Positions 9,955 to 15,942 of a stretch of 64,000 nucleotides of DNA are shown in pieces. The stretch covers positions 59,375 through 123,374 of the forward strand of contig JAPSLL010000002.1 in assembly GCA_031180805.1 (NCBI GenBank), written 5' to 3'. How positions within the stretch are numbered: the first letter of the stretch is position 1; each line of letters begins with the position of its first letter. The stretch comes from Bacillus sp. (in: firmicutes) (lineage in GTDB: Bacteria > Bacillota > Bacilli > Bacillales > Bacillaceae). Position numbers and translations under genes: made by a program. The notes below the pieces were generated by a model. That model ran no database searches and had not been told where the DNA came from. It saw nothing but the letters and a program-made list of their open reading frames with translations.

Positions 9955-11988
9955 CTAACTAACCCTTGAAACCTCTTTTCCTAGCTGAAGCTGGTGCATT
10001 TGATAGTATTTTCCTTTTTGTCTAAGAAGCTCTTCATGGTTTCCTCTTTCAACTATTTCTCCTTGATCTAAGACAAGGATTTGATCAGCATTACGTATCG
10101 TTGATAGGCGGTGGGCAATAATGAACGTTGTTCTGCCCTCCTTAACAATATTTAACGCTCGTTGAATCATTGCTTCTGTTTCAGTGTCAATATTCGCTGT
10201 TGCTTCATCTAAAATAAGAATAGCAGGATCATAGGCAAGTGCTCGGGCAAACGAAATAAGCTGACGCTCACCTGCAGACAATGTACTCCCTTTCTCGAGA
10301 ACAGGTTCATCATATTGCTTAGGAAGCTTTTCAATAAACCTGTCAGCACCTACATCCTTTAAAGCCTTAATAATTTGCTCCTCAGTAATATCTGGATTAT
10401 CTAAACTAACATTTGACGAAATTGTCCCTGTAAATAAAAACGGATCTTGAAGCACAATGCCCATATGCTTTCGTAAATGCTGTCTAGGAACTGTGCTCAC
10501 ATCGATACCATCAATCGTGATTTTGCCCTTCTCAATATCATAGTAACGGAATAATAGGTTAATAATCGAGCTTTTCCCCGATCCAGTATGCCCGACTAAT
10601 GCGACAGTCTCACCCTTACTTGCTTGGAAGTTTATATTTTTGAGAACGTCATGCTCTCCATCATATGAAAATGTCACATTAGTAAATTGAACATTTCCCT
10701 CATATCGAGAGATTTCACCCTCTGCAACATTTTCTCCCTTTTCATCTAACAATTCAAATACACGTTCCGAAGCAACTCTCGCCTGCTCAAGCTGGGCAAG
10801 TTGGTTCACAATATCCGTAACAGGTTGGAACAATCTATTTAAATAATCAACAAAGGCATAGAGCATTCCAATTGAAATAATACCAGCAGCATCCATCGAT
10901 TGCCCACCGAAGTACCAAATTAGCACGACAAAGGTTCCATTACGAAGAACACCGACTAAATTATGAGATGTTAAAGAATTTAAACTTAGCAATTTATTTT
11001 GATACGTAAAATGCTCATAGTTCAAATCTTCAAATTCTTTTGTAATCTGTTCCTTCCGTTGAAATGCCCGAATTATTGGCATTCCTTGAATTGATTCATT
11101 AATCATTCCATTTATATCACTTACCCTTGTGCGAATAAGGTGGTTATATTTTGATGCAAGTTTCCGATAGACGATAATCCATAGAACGATAATAGGTACT
11201 AGTAAAAGTGTAATTAACGCAAGCCTTGTATCAAGGAAAAATAATGCGACAAAAATTCCCGTCATATAAATTCCACTTGTAAAAAATGTTGCTAAAACTT
11301 TTACATAAAGCTCCCGAATCGCTTCTGTATCATTTGTTACACGCGAAACGATCTTTCCAGCAGGTCTGTTATCAAAATATTGAATAGGAACCCGCTGAAT
11401 ATGCTCAAATACATCCTTTCTCATCTTTTGAATGATTCGATTGGCTGCCTTTTGGAGCATTAAGGTTTTACCATATTGGAAAAACCCTGCAATAACTAAT
11501 AAACCTACATAGAAGCTTAATAATATAATGATAGGTTTAATTTCCGGCTGATAAAAAGCAAAAATTTCCTGTTGGCTTAACTTTTCAATTTGATAAGTTG
11601 CCTCCTGATTTCCCTTTATAACAGTCAATTGTTGCCCATTAATTTCTCTATCTCCATCAAATGTTAAATGTTGATTTGTTGAATAGAAGGATCGCCCAAC
11701 CTGGACGATTTGCAGTTGGGCATCTCCTACCGTATCTTGTTCTGTCACGTTTGAACTTCTCTTATAGAAAAGCCCATTATATTCAACTGTCTGATCATCC
11801 TTAGTTTCCACTTCAATCCAAGGACTTTCAATGCCCCTCATATGCTCATCAATCACTTTCTTTGCGATAAACGGCCCTGTTAATTCAGCTGCAACAGCAA
11901 ATGTTAACATGACGAGGGCAAAGATAATCGTCCTTTTATAAAGAAGCGCGTAGTGAAACAATCGTTTTCCTGTTGATATCCGTTTCAA
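9955..11988 (-). CDS. bmrD: ABC multidrug exporter subunit BmrD-like (YheH)
   Basis: A 677-residue half-transporter: a membrane domain of six helices with a large extracytoplasmic insertion between the first two (about residues 45-145), then a nucleotide-binding domain. The NBD has Walker A GHTGSGKSS, signature LSAGERQ, Walker B ILILDEATA with the catalytic Glu, and IIAHRLST. B. subtilis BmrD is about this long and carries the canonical catalytic site of the BmrC/BmrD heterodimer, which matches what is seen here. It directly abuts the upstream partner, so the two are co-translated. It exports drugs and dyes across the cell membrane. Confidence 0.9.
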   Translation of the reverse strand: MKRISTGKRLFHYALLYKRTIIFALVMLTFAVAAELTGPFIAKKVIDEHMRGIESPWIEVETKDDQTVEYNGLFYKRSSNVTEQDTVGDAQLQIVQVGRSFYSTNQHLTFDGDREINGQQLTVIKGNQEATYQIEKLSQQEIFAFYQPEIKPIIILLSFYVGLLVIAGFFQYGKTLMLQKAANRIIQKMRKDVFEHIQRVPIQYFDNRPAGKIVSRVTNDTEAIRELYVKVLATFFTSGIYMTGIFVALFFLDTRLALITLLLVPIIVLWIIVYRKLASKYNHLIRTRVSDINGMINESIQGMPIIRAFQRKEQITKEFEDLNYEHFTYQNKLLSLNSLTSHNLVGVLRNGTFVVLIWYFGGQSMDAAGIISIGMLYAFVDYLNRLFQPVTDIVNQLAQLEQARVASERVFELLDEKGENVAEGEISRYEGNVQFTNVTFSYDGEHDVLKNINFQASKGETVALVGHTGSGKSSIINLLFRYYDIEKGKITIDGIDVSTVPRQHLRKHMGIVLQDPFLFTGTISSNVSLDNPDITEEQIIKALKDVGADRFIEKLPKQYDEPVLEKGSTLSAGERQLISFARALAYDPAILILDEATANIDTETEAMIQRALNIVKEGRTTFIIAHRLSTIRNADQILVLDQGEIVERGNHEELLRQKGKYYQMHQLQLGKEVSRVS

Positions 11989-13731
11989 TTAGCTCACCTC
12001 TCCATATGATTCAGCCTGTTGCCGATCGAATTGCTCTTTATACCATTTCCCCTTTTCAAGAAGTTGCTCGTGTGTCCCTTCTTCAACGATTCGCCCTTCA
12101 TCCAAAACAATTATCCAATCAGCATGTTGAATTGCCGACAAACGATGAGCTGTAATAAATGTCGTTTTCCCTGCTCTTTCTTTACGAATGTTTTCTATGA
12201 TTTCTGCCTCAGTCTTTCCATCAACTGCAGACATTGCATCATCTAATAGCAAAATTTCCGGATCTTTAATAAGGGCTCTCGCAATGGATATGCGCTGTTT
12301 TTGCCCACCCGATAAAGCTACACCCTTCTCCCCAACGAGTGTGTCAAGCCCTTTAGGCAAAACTGTTAAATCAAAGGCAGCTAGCTTTAAGGCTTGCTGG
12401 ATTTCCGCTTCACTGACTTCTTCTTTACCGAACTTTAAATTCTCTCGTATCGACCTGGAAAATAGGATTTGCTCCTGTGGAACGTAACCAATCCAAGAAT
12501 GAACATCCTCAATCTTAATAGATTCTAGTGATTTATCAGAAATGAGGATTTCACCAGTTCCTAATGGATATTCCCGTAACAGCTGCTTAAGCAGGGTAGA
12601 TTTCCCACTTCCCGTTTTTCCAACTACACCAATTGTCTCTCCTCGATTAACATGTAGTGAAATGTTTTTCAAATTATCAGTTGTTGCAGATGGGTAACGA
12701 AATGAAACATTTGAAAACACTATTGATTCAGCAACCTCGACATGAGCCGGATTGTTTTTGTCCTTAACGTCTTGTTCATACGAGAGGACCTCATTAACCC
12801 GATCTAATGACGCATTTCCTCGCTGTAAAATATTAATTAACTCACCTACAGCATTCATAGGCCAAATTAGCATCCCTAAGTAGATATTAAAGCTTACCAA
12901 TTCACCTAACGTTATAGCTTGATGGAAAACAAGATATGCACCATAACCAAGGCCAATGACATAACTAATCCCTACTAATATTTTGATTGTCGGTTCAAAT
13001 AATGCATCAACCTTAGCTACTTCAATATTTTTTTGATAAACATCCTCTGTCATATCATTAAATCGCTGTTCATCTGCCTTCTCCTGCACGTATGCCCGGA
13101 TAACCCTAACACCAGCAATCGATTCAAGGACATTATCATTTATATCACCAAAGGCATCTTGTGCCCTCATAAACCGTTTATGAATCATATTACCGAAATA
13201 ATTTATCGCAATAGCCATTATAGGCAACGGTAATAATGCAGCTAGGGTAAGCTGCCAGCTGATCGTTATACTCATAACAAGAATAATAATCATCATAAAA
13301 ATTGTTGAATCTATTAATGTTAAAATCCCAAAACCTGCCGTCATGGAAATAGCCTTTAAATCATTCGTCGCCCGCGCCATCAAGTCACCTGTTCGGTTTT
13401 TCTCATAAAAGCTAGGCATCATTGATAATAAATGTCTCATAAATCGATATCTCAGGATTCGTTCAATTAAATGCGCTCCACCAAAAAGCTGATACATCCA
13501 TACGTACGTAATGGCATAGCTGGATACTATAATCCCTCCAAAAAGAAGGAGTAGCTGCACTAGTCTTTCCCCTGTCATCTGACCAAATTGAATATCATCT
13601 ATAGCAAAACCAATAATTTTCGGCGGAATGATATCTAATACGCTTACAATAATTAATAACGTAATTGCAATTGTATATCTCTTCCAATTCTCTTTGAAAA
13701 ACCAGCTTAACTTTTTAAAAATCGAAAACAT
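11989..13731 (-). CDS. bmrC: ABC multidrug exporter subunit BmrC-like (YheI)
   Basis: A 580-residue half-transporter with six membrane helices and an NBD carrying Walker A GKTGSGKST and LSGGQKQR. Walker B reads ILLLDDAMSAVD: an Asp replaces the catalytic Glu, the degenerate-site signature of the BmrC subunit in heterodimeric exporters. The ATG at 13731 follows AAGGAGG. Expression is probably controlled by the long leader upstream, which contains a translated leader ORF and terminators, as known for B. subtilis bmrB-bmrCD. Confidence 0.9.
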   Translation of the reverse strand: MFSIFKKLSWFFKENWKRYTIAITLLIIVSVLDIIPPKIIGFAIDDIQFGQMTGERLVQLLLLFGGIIVSSYAITYVWMYQLFGGAHLIERILRYRFMRHLLSMMPSFYEKNRTGDLMARATNDLKAISMTAGFGILTLIDSTIFMMIIILVMSITISWQLTLAALLPLPIMAIAINYFGNMIHKRFMRAQDAFGDINDNVLESIAGVRVIRAYVQEKADEQRFNDMTEDVYQKNIEVAKVDALFEPTIKILVGISYVIGLGYGAYLVFHQAITLGELVSFNIYLGMLIWPMNAVGELINILQRGNASLDRVNEVLSYEQDVKDKNNPAHVEVAESIVFSNVSFRYPSATTDNLKNISLHVNRGETIGVVGKTGSGKSTLLKQLLREYPLGTGEILISDKSLESIKIEDVHSWIGYVPQEQILFSRSIRENLKFGKEEVSEAEIQQALKLAAFDLTVLPKGLDTLVGEKGVALSGGQKQRISIARALIKDPEILLLDDAMSAVDGKTEAEIIENIRKERAGKTTFITAHRLSAIQHADWIIVLDEGRIVEEGTHEQLLEKGKWYKEQFDRQQAESYGEVS

Positions 13732-13774
13732 TGAAAAATACCTCCTTATTGTTTTTTAATTTACCGTGGTGCAG

Positions 13775-13831
13775 TTAGCCACCCTTCATCCAATCTAAGT
13801 CAATCCGTCTCACCTGTTCTATTAGCATCAT
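13775..13831 (-). CDS. Second short leader ORF, 18 codons
   Basis: A small ORF in the last part of the bmrCD leader, starting ATGATG after GAAGGGAG and ending TAA; it encodes MMLIEQVRRIDLDWMKGG. The ribosome site and spacing look real. It sits 43 bases before bmrC, so its translation could influence initiation at bmrC. No homologue is recognised, and it could be chance. Confidence 0.45.
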   Translation of the reverse strand: MMLIEQVRRIDLDWMKGG

Positions 13832-13920
13832 CAAAACTCCCTTCACATTTTTATCTATAATAACGAGCAATTAGCTCGGAATATTCATTTGATAAAGCTT
13901 TTCGCTTCACTAGACGCGAA

Positions 13921-13949
13921 AAGGCATCGAGCGTAAGCGCACGATGCCT
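13921..13949 (-). terminator. Leader terminator 2 of bmrCD
   Basis: On the minus strand GGCATCG-t-GCG pairs with CGC-t-CGATGCC around a CTTA loop (13923-13947), followed by TTTTC. It lies downstream of the first leader terminator and 190 bases before bmrC, so transcripts must pass both. Confidence 0.75.
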
Positions 13950-13954
13950 TATTT

Positions 13955-13997
13955 AGACATAAATAAAACGCACGTTACTGAATCAAGTAACCTGCGT
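13955..13997 (-). terminator. Leader terminator 1 (attenuator) of bmrCD
   Basis: On the minus strand ACGCAGGTTACT (13986-13997) pairs with AGTAACGTGCGT (13968-13979) with one mismatch and a six-base loop, followed by TTTTATTTAT. Bases 13982-13992, covering half the 5' arm and the loop, are exactly complementary to 14062-14072 inside the leader ORF, which gives a mutually exclusive antiterminator. Confidence 0.82.
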
Positions 13998-14034
13998 CTA
14001 TATGTGTAAAGATAAGTGGATTAAATAACAACTA

Positions 14035-14112
14035 TCACTTTTTATGTACTGTTATTGGACGGGTTACTTGATATGAATTTTGATAGATGTCATGAATCAT
14101 TCGATTTCTCAT
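14035..14112 (-). CDS. Leader peptide of the bmrCD attenuator, 25 aa
   Basis: A 26-codon ORF with GGAGGG seven bases before its ATG; it begins MRNRMIHDIYQNSYQVT and ends in HKK. It lies 32 bases after a predicted transcription start. Codons 14-17 contain ATCAAGTAACC, which can pair with the first terminator. A ribosome moving through would mask it; a ribosome stalled early by an antibiotic would leave it free to prevent termination. This parallels the bmrB leader of B. subtilis, although I cannot confirm sequence homology. Confidence 0.8.
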   Translation of the reverse strand: MRNRMIHDIYQNSYQVTRPITVHKK

Positions 14113-14150
14113 TGTATAACCCTCCATTTCTTTTAAATTTATTCTTTTCC

Positions 14151-14180
14151 ATTTTATGACTTTCCAATTATTGTTGTCAA
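14151..14180 (-). promoter_or_regulatory. Promoter of the bmrCD leader transcript
   Basis: On the minus strand TTGACA (14175-14180) and TAAAAT (14151-14156) are 18 bases apart. Transcription would begin near 14144, just upstream of the leader ORF and about 410 bases from bmrC. Confidence 0.75.
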
Positions 14181-14391: not shown

Positions 14392-14421
14392 TTGACAACG
14401 TAAAGCGATAAAAAGTATTAT
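14392..14421 (+). promoter_or_regulatory. Promoter of the peptide transporter gene
   Basis: TTGACA at 14392-14397 and TATTAT at 14416-14421 are 18 bases apart; the ribosome site AAAGGAGG follows at 14434-14441. The preceding 210 bases between this and the divergent bmr promoter are AT-rich and show nothing else. Confidence 0.7.
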
Positions 14422-14445: not shown

Positions 14446-15942
14446 ATGATGTCAGACATCAACAAGCAGAAAATTGTGTCTAGCGTCCCACAAAAAGGAT
14501 TCTTCGGACACCCTAAAGGATTATTCACTCTGTTCTTTACAGAATTCTGGGAACGTTTTTCATATTACGGAATGAAGGCTATATTAATTTATTATATGTA
14601 TTATTCAGTTTCAAAGGGCGGCTTAGGCTTTGATGAAAGCACAGCACTTGCGATCACCTCAATTTACGGTTCATTAGTTTACATGTCCGGTATTATCGGA
14701 GGTTGGTTAGCAGACCGTATACTTGGTACGTCAAATTCTGTTTTTTACGGCGGAATACTGATTATGCTTGGCCATCTCGCGCTTGCGATTCCAGGTAGTG
14801 TGTCACTATTCTTCGTCTCGATGGTCTTAATCGTTCTTGGTACTGGCTTACTTAAGCCAAATGTATCGAGTATTGTTGGAGAAATTTATAGCGAAGAGGA
14901 CAACCGCCGCGATTCTGGTTTTAGCATATTTTATATGGGTATAAACCTAGGTGCTTTTATCTCTCCATTAATTGTCGGAGAAGTTGGCTTAAAGCATAAT
15001 TTCCACTTAGGCTTTTCTATTGCAGCAATCGGAATGTTTGTCGGTTTACTTGTATTTATGTTTACGAAAAAGAAGAACCTTGGACTCGCTGGAAAGGACA
15101 TAGCTAATCCTTTATCAGCTGGGGAAAAGAAAAAGGTATTCTCAATTATCGGTTTAGGCATCATTATTATTGCAGTGGCTATTGCAATTTCAATTCCGTT
15201 AGGACTATTAACATTTAAGTCCTTTATAAGCCTTATTGGTGTGTTGGGTATTTTAATTCCAACGATATATTTTATTGTTATGTATCGCAGCCCAAAAACA
15301 ACTGCCGTTGAGCGTTCAAGAATTATTGCCTATATTCCATTATTTATTGCATCTGTTATGTTTTGGGCAATTCAAGAGCAAGGTTCAACTATTCTCGCCC
15401 ACTACGCAGACAAACGAACAGATTTACATTTTGCGGGATTAACGATTTCTCCTGCATGGTTCCAATCGTTAAACCCATTATTTATTATTACTTTAGCTCC
15501 TGTTTTTGCTTGGCTATGGGTTAAATTAGGTAATCGCCAACCATCTATACCTAGGAAGTTTTCACTCGGGCTTCTTTTTGCCGGCTTCTCATTTATTGTT
15601 ATTTTAGTACCGGCTTATATAGGTGGAGAACATACTCTCGTTAATCCGTTATGGTTAGTATTAAGCTATTTTATCGTTGTCCTTGGTGAGTTATGTTTAT
15701 CACCTGTTGGACTTTCAGCAACAACCAAGCTTGCACCAGCTGCTTTTTCAGCACAAACAATGAGCCTATGGTTCTTATCAAATGCAGCTGCACAGGCTAT
15801 CAATGCTCAAATCGTTAAATTTTATACAGCAGAAACAGAAATGCTCTACTTTGGGAGCATCGGAGGAATCGCTATTCTTCTAAGTATCATTCTTTTCTTT
15901 GTATCACCAAAAATTCAAAGCTATATGCAAGGTGTAAAATAA
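14446..15942 (+). CDS. POT/PTR-family proton-dependent di/tripeptide transporter
   Basis: A 498-residue membrane protein importing small peptides with protons (DtpT/YclF type). The POT motif FTEFWERFSYYGMKAILIYYMY lies at about residues 30-50, with the ExxER element visible, and the second signature FSIFYMGINLGAFISP at about 160-175. About 12-14 membrane helices. ATG codons at 14446 and 14449 are both usable; the second has better spacing from AAAGGAGG. It stands alone. Confidence 0.93.
   Translation: MMSDINKQKIVSSVPQKGFFGHPKGLFTLFFTEFWERFSYYGMKAILIYYMYYSVSKGGLGFDESTALAITSIYGSLVYMSGIIGGWLADRILGTSNSVFYGGILIMLGHLALAIPGSVSLFFVSMVLIVLGTGLLKPNVSSIVGEIYSEEDNRRDSGFSIFYMGINLGAFISPLIVGEVGLKHNFHLGFSIAAIGMFVGLLVFMFTKKKNLGLAGKDIANPLSAGEKKKVFSIIGLGIIIIAVAIAISIPLGLLTFKSFISLIGVLGILIPTIYFIVMYRSPKTTAVERSRIIAYIPLFIASVMFWAIQEQGSTILAHYADKRTDLHFAGLTISPAWFQSLNPLFIITLAPVFAWLWVKLGNRQPSIPRKFSLGLLFAGFSFIVILVPAYIGGEHTLVNPLWLVLSYFIVVLGELCLSPVGLSATTKLAPAAFSAQTMSLWFLSNAAAQAINAQIVKFYTAETEMLYFGSIGGIAILLSIILFFVSPKIQSYMQGVK

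Follow-up and report, generated by a model that had tools for sequence, protein, structure and literature searches.

The window, the whole stretch of 64,000 nucleotides of Bacillus sp. DNA that was analysed, carries on its minus strand both halves of an ABC exporter, bmrC and bmrD, preceded by a leader that contains a promoter, two small open reading frames (ORF1 and ORF2) and several hairpins (Table 1). The name bmrC is based on orthology to the Bacillus subtilis locus (L150, 62% identity), which belongs to the same family as the window organism. The start called for bmrD is a TTG immediately past the bmrC stop (11988-11989), which would suggest coupled translation of the exporter halves. On the plus strand, a promoter-like site (TTGACA-18-TATTAT, 14392-14421) lies ahead of a divergent peptide transporter gene (14446-15942), so that both operons would be transcribed away from each other. 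Within the leader, four segments can be recognized that pair as 1:2, 2:3 or 3:4, and the last of these pairings is the hairpin of the terminator T1.

Table 1. Elements of the bmrCD leader and the genes that follow it, in positions of the window.
Feature	Positions	Strand	Description	Basis or remark
Promoter	14151..14180	-	-35 TTGACA, -10 TAAAAT, 18-base spacer	Promoter scan
ORF1 Shine-Dalgarno	14116..14125	-	GGAGGGTTAT; segment 1, pairs with segment 2	Weak for the window alone
ORF1	14035..14112	-	25-aa leader, MRNRMIHDIYQNSYQVTRPITVHKK	Sequence and relatives
Start-complementary stretch	14071..14079	-	AATTCATAT (usually ATTTCATAT), kept as nucleotides; complements the region of the ORF1 start and forms the inner portion of the 1:2 hairpin	
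Segment 2	14057..14067	-	GTAACCCGTCC, within ORF1; partner is segment 1 or segment 3	
11-base segment	14062..14072	-	ATCAAGTAACC, complementary to 13982-13992	Earlier note
Segment 3	13987..13996	-	CGCAGGTTAC, 5' arm of T1	
T1	13961..13996	-	3:4 hairpin 13996..13969 (CGCAGGTTAC..GTAACGTGCG, one G.G mismatch) and T-rich tail TTTTATTT	
T2	13919..13950	-	Second terminator-like hairpin, four-T tail; located where B. subtilis has its tested terminator	
Small hairpin	13864..13879	-	CCGAGC..GCTCG and conserved AT-rich tail	
ORF2 Shine-Dalgarno	13837..13844	-	GAAGGGAG	
ORF2	13775..13831	-	17-18 aa, (M)MLIEQVRRIDLDWMKGG; second conserved small ORF	
bmrC orthologue	11989..13731	-	580 aa, ABC exporter half; Shine-Dalgarno AAGGAGG 13741-13747	
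bmrD	9955..11988	-	677 aa, second exporter half, directly after bmrC	Named by position and family

An earlier note on this DNA had described a good promoter, a 25-aa leader ORF with a strong ribosome site, a terminator with a T-run and 11 bases of the leader that are exactly complementary to that terminator; every coordinate of it that was checked is correct to the base. The promoter matches the consensus at 11 of 12 positions. Promoter-like sites number 7 in the region against 5.6 in shuffles, and only the quality of this site stands out. ORF1 follows a near-perfect Shine-Dalgarno sequence and lies ahead of T1, whose hairpin runs directly into its T-rich tail. The 11-base segment is the exact reverse complement of GGTTACTTGAT (13992..13982), and a match to T1 of at least 11 bases was obtained in 2 of 5,000 shuffles of the leader ORF. 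To these parts are added the complementarity of segment 2 to the ORF1 Shine-Dalgarno sequence, the second hairpin T2 and ORF2, none of which the earlier note had mentioned. The small hairpin between T2 and ORF2, with its AT-rich tail (GTTTATATAGAT or similar), was recovered by pattern in 17 of 20 leaders of the genus. Comparison of the window region and 10 loci with Rfam gave no match above the gathering score. Two sub-threshold matches, ncr1575 and EF3314_EF3315, were rejected as the identity of the leader with scores far below gathering, and no mention of ncr1575 together with B. subtilis was found in the literature searched.

A related ABC exporter was present in 60 of 60 genomes searched, as is expected for so large a family. 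The leaders compared here comprise 97 oriented upstream regions pooled as 30 + 20 + 30 + 17, one batch being 30 of the 43 bmrC-matching genomes in one genus (44 searched) and another 17 of 80 named loci; two loci are present twice (L021/L049 and L130/L160). An automatic call of ORF1, with a strong ribosome site and, farther upstream, a promoter-like TTGA[CT], was obtained for 87 of the 97 regions (no call in L003, L051, L055, L058, L061-L063, L081, L148 and L156). For the 20 leaders of the genus, 19 were called automatically and one, L003, was placed by hand. Wider comparisons used 47 representatives hand-picked among leaders with an ORF1 call, a set that carries no information on the frequency of loci lacking ORF1. 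The 20 genus leaders were used to build a covariance model, which found exactly one copy, beside bmrC, in 20 of 21 genus genomes; trained on the same sequences, it demonstrates uniqueness and not independent discovery. The exception, G010, lacks a close bmrC; its best exporter match is a distant one (E 3.9e-91, 35% identity). Under stricter filters the model matched 0 of 59 other family genomes and is too narrow to trace the order. ORF1, T1 and the antiterminator are thus conserved in the genus (20/21 genomes).

What is conserved in ORF1 does not point to a stalling peptide. A motif R/K-x-R/K within codons 2-9 occurs in only 11 of 47 leaders, and peptide-specific stalling was set aside. The conserved residues ISY look like nucleotide conservation read in different frames, as three leaders (L139, L145, L153) read QFH at the same site.

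T1 is identified by folding (-12.7 and -15.7 kcal/mol) and by conservation; a simple terminator scan reports the small hairpin (13878..13864) alone and misses both T1 and T2. None of 100 shuffles folds as well as the whole leader (z -4.25). A model of the switch by equilibrium folding, with a ribosome moved stepwise along the leader, was discarded after T1 won every state in the window, and folds before and after synthesis of segment 4 were therefore compared in the 20 genus leaders. When a ribosome occupies the ORF1 start and polymerase has not yet made segment 4, 18 of 20 leaders adopt the antiterminator as their minimum-energy fold. In the complete leader, T1 exceeds the antiterminator in stability in 19 of 20 cases with the ribosome in place (mean 5.8 kcal/mol) and in 20 of 20 without it (mean 11.2 kcal/mol); in the window the gap between the two is 3.1 kcal/mol. 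Since occupancy of the start does not overturn the equilibrium preference for T1, the switch would have to be kinetic, with the order of pairing deciding the outcome. If no ribosome is present and segment 4 has yet to be made, 1:2 prevails over the antiterminator in at most 13 of the 20 leaders. One of these, L020, is unreliable, since forcing 1:2 there introduces a non-standard pair and gives a score below the free minimum.

The three pairings leave different traces in the alignments. Across the 20 genus leaders, the consensus is GTRRCC for segment 2, GGTYRY for segment 3 and close to GTRAC for segment 4. The window and three relatives have GTAACC/GGTTAC/GTAAC, that is A/T/A at one position of segments 2, 3 and 4, where two leaders carry a G.U intermediate and the other 14 have G/C/G. 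Standard pairs occupy 97.5% of cells for 2:3 and 97.8% for 3:4, with covariation scores reached by 0 and 2 of 500 shuffles, respectively, although two-sided changes within the genus are confined to one pair in each. For 1:2 the figure is 96.7% and for the inner start-codon pairing 97.5%, neither with an excess of covariation over shuffles; changes in 1:2 are one-sided only. Pairings slid out of register reach no more than 54% of cells for 1:2, 2:3 and 3:4, and up to 70% for the inner pairing. An antiterminator that excludes the terminator and covaries with it is accordingly found, as the earlier note had proposed for a translation-coupled attenuator with mutually exclusive structures; its leader ORF is conserved in relatives and its pairing arms covary, two findings whose absence would have counted against the note's reading. 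Its further remark, that leader and pairing are specific to this sequence, does not hold. The whole genus has the core GTRACC:GGTYAC pairing, pairings related to it are found across the order, and only the extension to 11 bases is local to the window.

Over greater distances, the complementarity is matched to the species. In ungapped comparisons of 47 leaders, a leader's own segments pair better than swapped ones both for 1:2 (23.0 versus 18.6) and for 2:3 (22.2 versus 19.9), a difference reached in neither case by any of 20,000 permutations. A reduced set of 29 leaders, one per group as judged by hand, was combined with a shuffle correction for composition in order to weaken the effects of relatedness and base composition. 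Here the values are z 2.12 versus 0.79 for 1:2 (0/20,000 permutations) and z 1.07 versus 0.21 for 2:3 (3/20,000), and 14 and 8 of the 29 single leaders, respectively, exceed z 1.64; descent is not modelled in these permutation tests. Taken leader by leader the signal is uneven. In gapped comparisons, 10 or fewer of 200 shuffles were as good as 1:2 in 33 of the 37 leaders covered and as good as 2:3 in 9 of 37; without gaps, 25 of 47 (1:2) and 11 of 47 (2:3) lie at or below 15 of 300 shuffles, and the own pairing is the best of its row in only 6 and 5 of 47. Bases outside the Shine-Dalgarno core change together on both sides of 1:2 in the representative alignments, and in a search spanning 18-220 nt the best partner of segment 1 falls inside ORF1 in 32 of 47 leaders, against 14.4 expected by length. 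An anti-antiterminator overlapping the leader ORF is thus seen across relatives, with one-sided variation only in the genus.

Together, these observations argue that a ribosome-mediated transcription attenuator with four mutually exclusive RNA segments controls bmrCD, a reading to which we assign a probability of roughly 0.7. The parts themselves, their conservation and the species-matched complementarity of 1:2 and 2:3 can be read from the DNA; the order of events, an antibiotic response at this locus and the passage of T2 are what we infer from them. Segment 1, comprising the ORF1 ribosome site and start, would pair with segment 2 inside ORF1 as an anti-antiterminator (1:2), segment 2 with segment 3 as the antiterminator (2:3), and segments 3 and 4 as the two arms of T1 (3:4). 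With no ribosome on the leader, 1:2 would form, T1 would follow and the operon would be off. A freely moving ribosome would cover segment 2 while segments 3 and 4 are being made, again permitting T1. If a translation inhibitor arrested a ribosome on or close to the ORF1 start, that ribosome, or a queue behind it, would block segment 1 and leave segment 2 free to capture segment 3 before segment 4 exists, and polymerase would pass T1. T2 would serve as a second check, the one tested in B. subtilis, and ORF2 would be a separate conserved element that perhaps acts at its own translation termination on exporter translation or mRNA stability. The proposal that a ribosome stalled in the first dozen codons gives readthrough keeps its stalling logic and needs an amendment, in that the ribosome must also keep segment 1 open. 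Since segment 2 can sequester the ORF1 Shine-Dalgarno sequence too, an untranslated leader should also terminate.

How polymerase would pass T2 is less apparent. Among the 32 of 47 representatives whose T2 fitted the search pattern, no pairing of the upstream region that would exclude T2 was detected (own 18.1 versus swapped 18.6; 16,585 of 20,000 permutations as high). T2 of the window has only four T in its tail and may simply be leaky here. By eye, leaders of the B. subtilis group offer a plausible pairing of the 3' arm of the first hairpin with the 5' arm of T2.

One competitor retains the switch and dispenses with the Shine-Dalgarno arm, so that only the antiterminator and T1 count and the complementarity of segment 1 is a by-product. 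The antiterminator alone already gives a workable switch, and the window lends 1:2 little help. There 1:2 loses to the antiterminator before segment 4 is made, its score is reached by 108 of 300 ungapped shuffles (4 of 200 gapped), the window is among the 15 of 47 leaders whose best Shine-Dalgarno partner falls outside ORF1, and the genus contains no two-sided change in 1:2. Yet no signal in the analysis is stronger than the species-matched complementarity of 1:2 across the order, and the pairing extends beyond the Shine-Dalgarno core and recurs with new sequences (e.g. L023, L029, L131, L140, L144). This two-element version is therefore unlikely, and the Shine-Dalgarno arm appears supported across relatives while weak in the window alone.

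The four-segment attenuator also bears on the identity of the leader peptide in B. subtilis. The accessible text of the published study (Reilman et al. 2014, PMC4191407) takes a 53-aa GTG frame, BmrB, as the leader and places three stem-loops in its nucleotides 60-162. Locus L150 fits the numbers given there, with a 162-nt, 53-codon GTG ORF 119 nt before bmrC and C at 136 and 140 in T2. ORF1 of L150 (MPRNLRVYQTVSYWRGKPFVLFS, 23 aa) is read in another frame and starts 16 nt upstream of the BmrB GTG. It has an ATG and a longer Shine-Dalgarno sequence, GGAAGGAGGG, whereas the BmrB GTG is preceded by a short AAGGA. Across 14 hand-chosen loci of the B. subtilis group, L150 included, ORF1 is intact in 14, while 6 (L134, L136, L150, L157, L173 and L176) have a BmrB frame that retains the GTG and stays open across T2. 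L157, missed by the T2 pattern, was counted from its translation. Of the 8 loci with a broken frame, L153 is ambiguous in that its ORF1 is itself in the BmrB-type frame (QFH) and stops before T2. The window does not contain a 53-aa leader enclosing the terminator; its leader is 25 aa long and ends before T1. This pattern suggests that the BmrB leader named in B. subtilis may be the wrong reading frame and ORF1 the real leader.

The converse, that the annotated 53-aa frame is the true conserved leader of B. subtilis and ORF1 an overlapping accident, can call on the ribosome site of its GTG, short as it is, and on an in-frame BmrB-GFP fusion that fluoresced from a plasmid; the same source, in the portion available, records no signal from chromosomal BmrB-GFP (PMC4191407). 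With the stronger start of ORF1 and its better preservation in the group, we regard this as very unlikely. The reporter data in the articles examined come from B. subtilis. In the published experiments, preventing translation of the leader lowered expression and abolished induction by lincomycin, and the start-codon mutant also had four 5'-UTR changes that removed alternative starts or ribosome sites (PMC4191407, accessible text). Because of these four changes, the mutant may have hit ORF1, and the two effects of blocking leader translation fit the four-segment model. Least probable of all, T1 and T2 would be plain insulating terminators and ORF1 incidental, with bmrCD switched elsewhere, for example at the promoter, an idea favoured by published control of the B. 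subtilis promoter by AbrB (PMC4191407, in the text available), by T2 having no matched alternative partner in 32 leaders and by the preference for T1 at equilibrium, and opposed by the three-way covariation and the matched complementarity.

The second small frame, ORF2, is conserved in a different manner. Of 93 loci, a count that omits L003, L004 and the duplicates L049 and L160, 76 contain a small ORF with a ribosome site that ends in [E/D/K]-[G/S]-G-stop no more than 140 nt from bmrC; a looser ending raises the number to 80. The motif was defined with the data already in view; with either ending it occurs 0 times on the reverse strand and 2 times in a shifted window, and shuffles give 0.06 per set (0.15 for the looser ending). 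With a ribosome site, the strict motif occurs once in the 64-kb window. No ORF2 was called in 13 of 97 loci. Nine of these are without the ORF2 ending (Paenibacillus, Cohnella, Exiguobacterium, Priestia, Oceanobacillus and L147). Among the others, the ending can be made out by eye in L153, L051 and L052 show D-S-G-stop but no clear start, and L156 is cut by the contig. ORF2 lies 16 to 45 nt from bmrC in most loci and 75, 146 and 312 nt away in three; L003 (312 nt) and L004 (146 nt), instead of about 40 nt, have extra intervening sequence and keep the ending. In L142, two small ORFs ending in EGG-stop were seen by eye, one of them immediately ahead of bmrC, the second at a greater distance and separated from the first by other sequence.

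The 20 genus members share the ending R-I-(D/Y/H)-(L/I)-D-W-(M/I)-(K/E)-G-G, with synonymous changes at several codons and little variation in the last three codons. Across genera of the order, only the last three residues are common; the peptides differ in the remainder of their sequence, in length and even in the stop codon used. Of 49 loci compared, 46 have a call, and in these the third-last residue is E in 27, K in 10, D in 8 and N in 1; the second-last is G in 32, S in 13 (all AGY) and D in 1; the last is G in 43, T in 2 and D in 1; and the stop is TAG in 23, TAA in 18 and TGA in 5. The changes of stop codon and the lack of AGR (Arg) indicate selection on the residues of ORF2, not on a fixed RNA string. 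A hairpin search of 47 leaders, minus the last 35 nt, showed no common terminator after ORF2; L143 has a hairpin over the end of ORF2 with four T in its tail.

At about even odds, ORF2 is a translational-coupling spacer or a short functional peptide that plays no part in sensing. It adjoins bmrC with a ribosome site of its own, and only its last three residues are common across genera. According to the accessible text of PMC4191407, the B. subtilis reporter bmrB162 is still lincomycin-responsive; as this reporter ends upstream of ORF2, ORF2 is not needed for the lincomycin response. Strict coupling, by contrast, is ill served by so variable a distance to bmrC, which also argues against a ribosome on the ORF2 stop occluding the bmrC ribosome site, and conservation limited to residues beside the stop codon, as in termination-arrest leaders (TnaC, SpeFL, MsrDL), suggests an effect at termination. 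A more tentative and less probable alternative is that ORF2 represents the first example of a group of regulatory peptides acting at the stop codon, which might slow termination in a drug- or stress-dependent manner and thereby set exporter translation or message stability.

The architecture has well-studied relatives. The E. coli trp attenuator employs four segments that pair as 1:2, 2:3 and 3:4, with a leader ORF over segments 1-2, and senses charged tRNA at Trp codons. The four-segment plan is the same here, whereas general ribosome stalling, and not the sensing of Trp codons, is the inferred input. The bmrB-bmrCD attenuator of B. subtilis (PMC4191407) is alike in its orthologous exporter, in leader translation, in a terminator before bmrC and in the order of parts; its description, in the text available, includes neither the Shine-Dalgarno arm nor ORF2. 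T1 of the window has a T-run, while the first hairpin of B. subtilis is without one and T2 is the terminator shown there to respond to lincomycin. The vmlR leader of B. subtilis, as described in the accessible text of PMC9226507, likewise has a short uORF inside an anti-antiterminator hairpin, an antiterminator and a terminator, and there an antibiotic-stalled ribosome opens the first hairpin, as is proposed here. Its uORF comprises three codons and has a single-stranded Shine-Dalgarno sequence, compared with about 20-40 codons and a Shine-Dalgarno sequence within the hairpin in the present leaders. In vmlR a hairpin sequesters the Shine-Dalgarno sequence of the main gene, and no counterpart of ORF2 was found in that text. 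The msrDL leader of the mefA/msrD operon (PMC10314930, accessible text) is alike in that the operon has two leader peptides. MsrDL (MYLIFM) acts on a terminator after itself, whereas no common terminator was found after ORF2 in the stretch searched, and the sequences are unrelated.

The attenuator is thus of a known kind, represented by bmrBCD and vmlR, while the leader frame, the 1:2 arm and ORF2 appear new relative to the literature examined. In the articles searched, partly as excerpts, neither ORF2 nor a revised BmrB frame was found.

If right, these findings would affect how a familiar system is read. The bmrB leader of B. subtilis is a studied drug-sensing attenuator and serves as a reporter of translation rate (PMC8670375, accessible text). 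If its true leader is the 23-aa ORF1, results obtained with codon optimisation and in-frame fusions need rereading, and the Shine-Dalgarno arm could explain the off state of the untranslated leader. For B. cereus, the accessible text of PMC5417439 reports possible stem-loops and a drug response with no clear BmrB homologue, to which ORF1 as the leader may offer an answer. ORF2 is conserved beside a multidrug exporter in many genera; if it acts at its stop codon, the exporter would have, besides the transcription switch at ORF1, a separate second switch.
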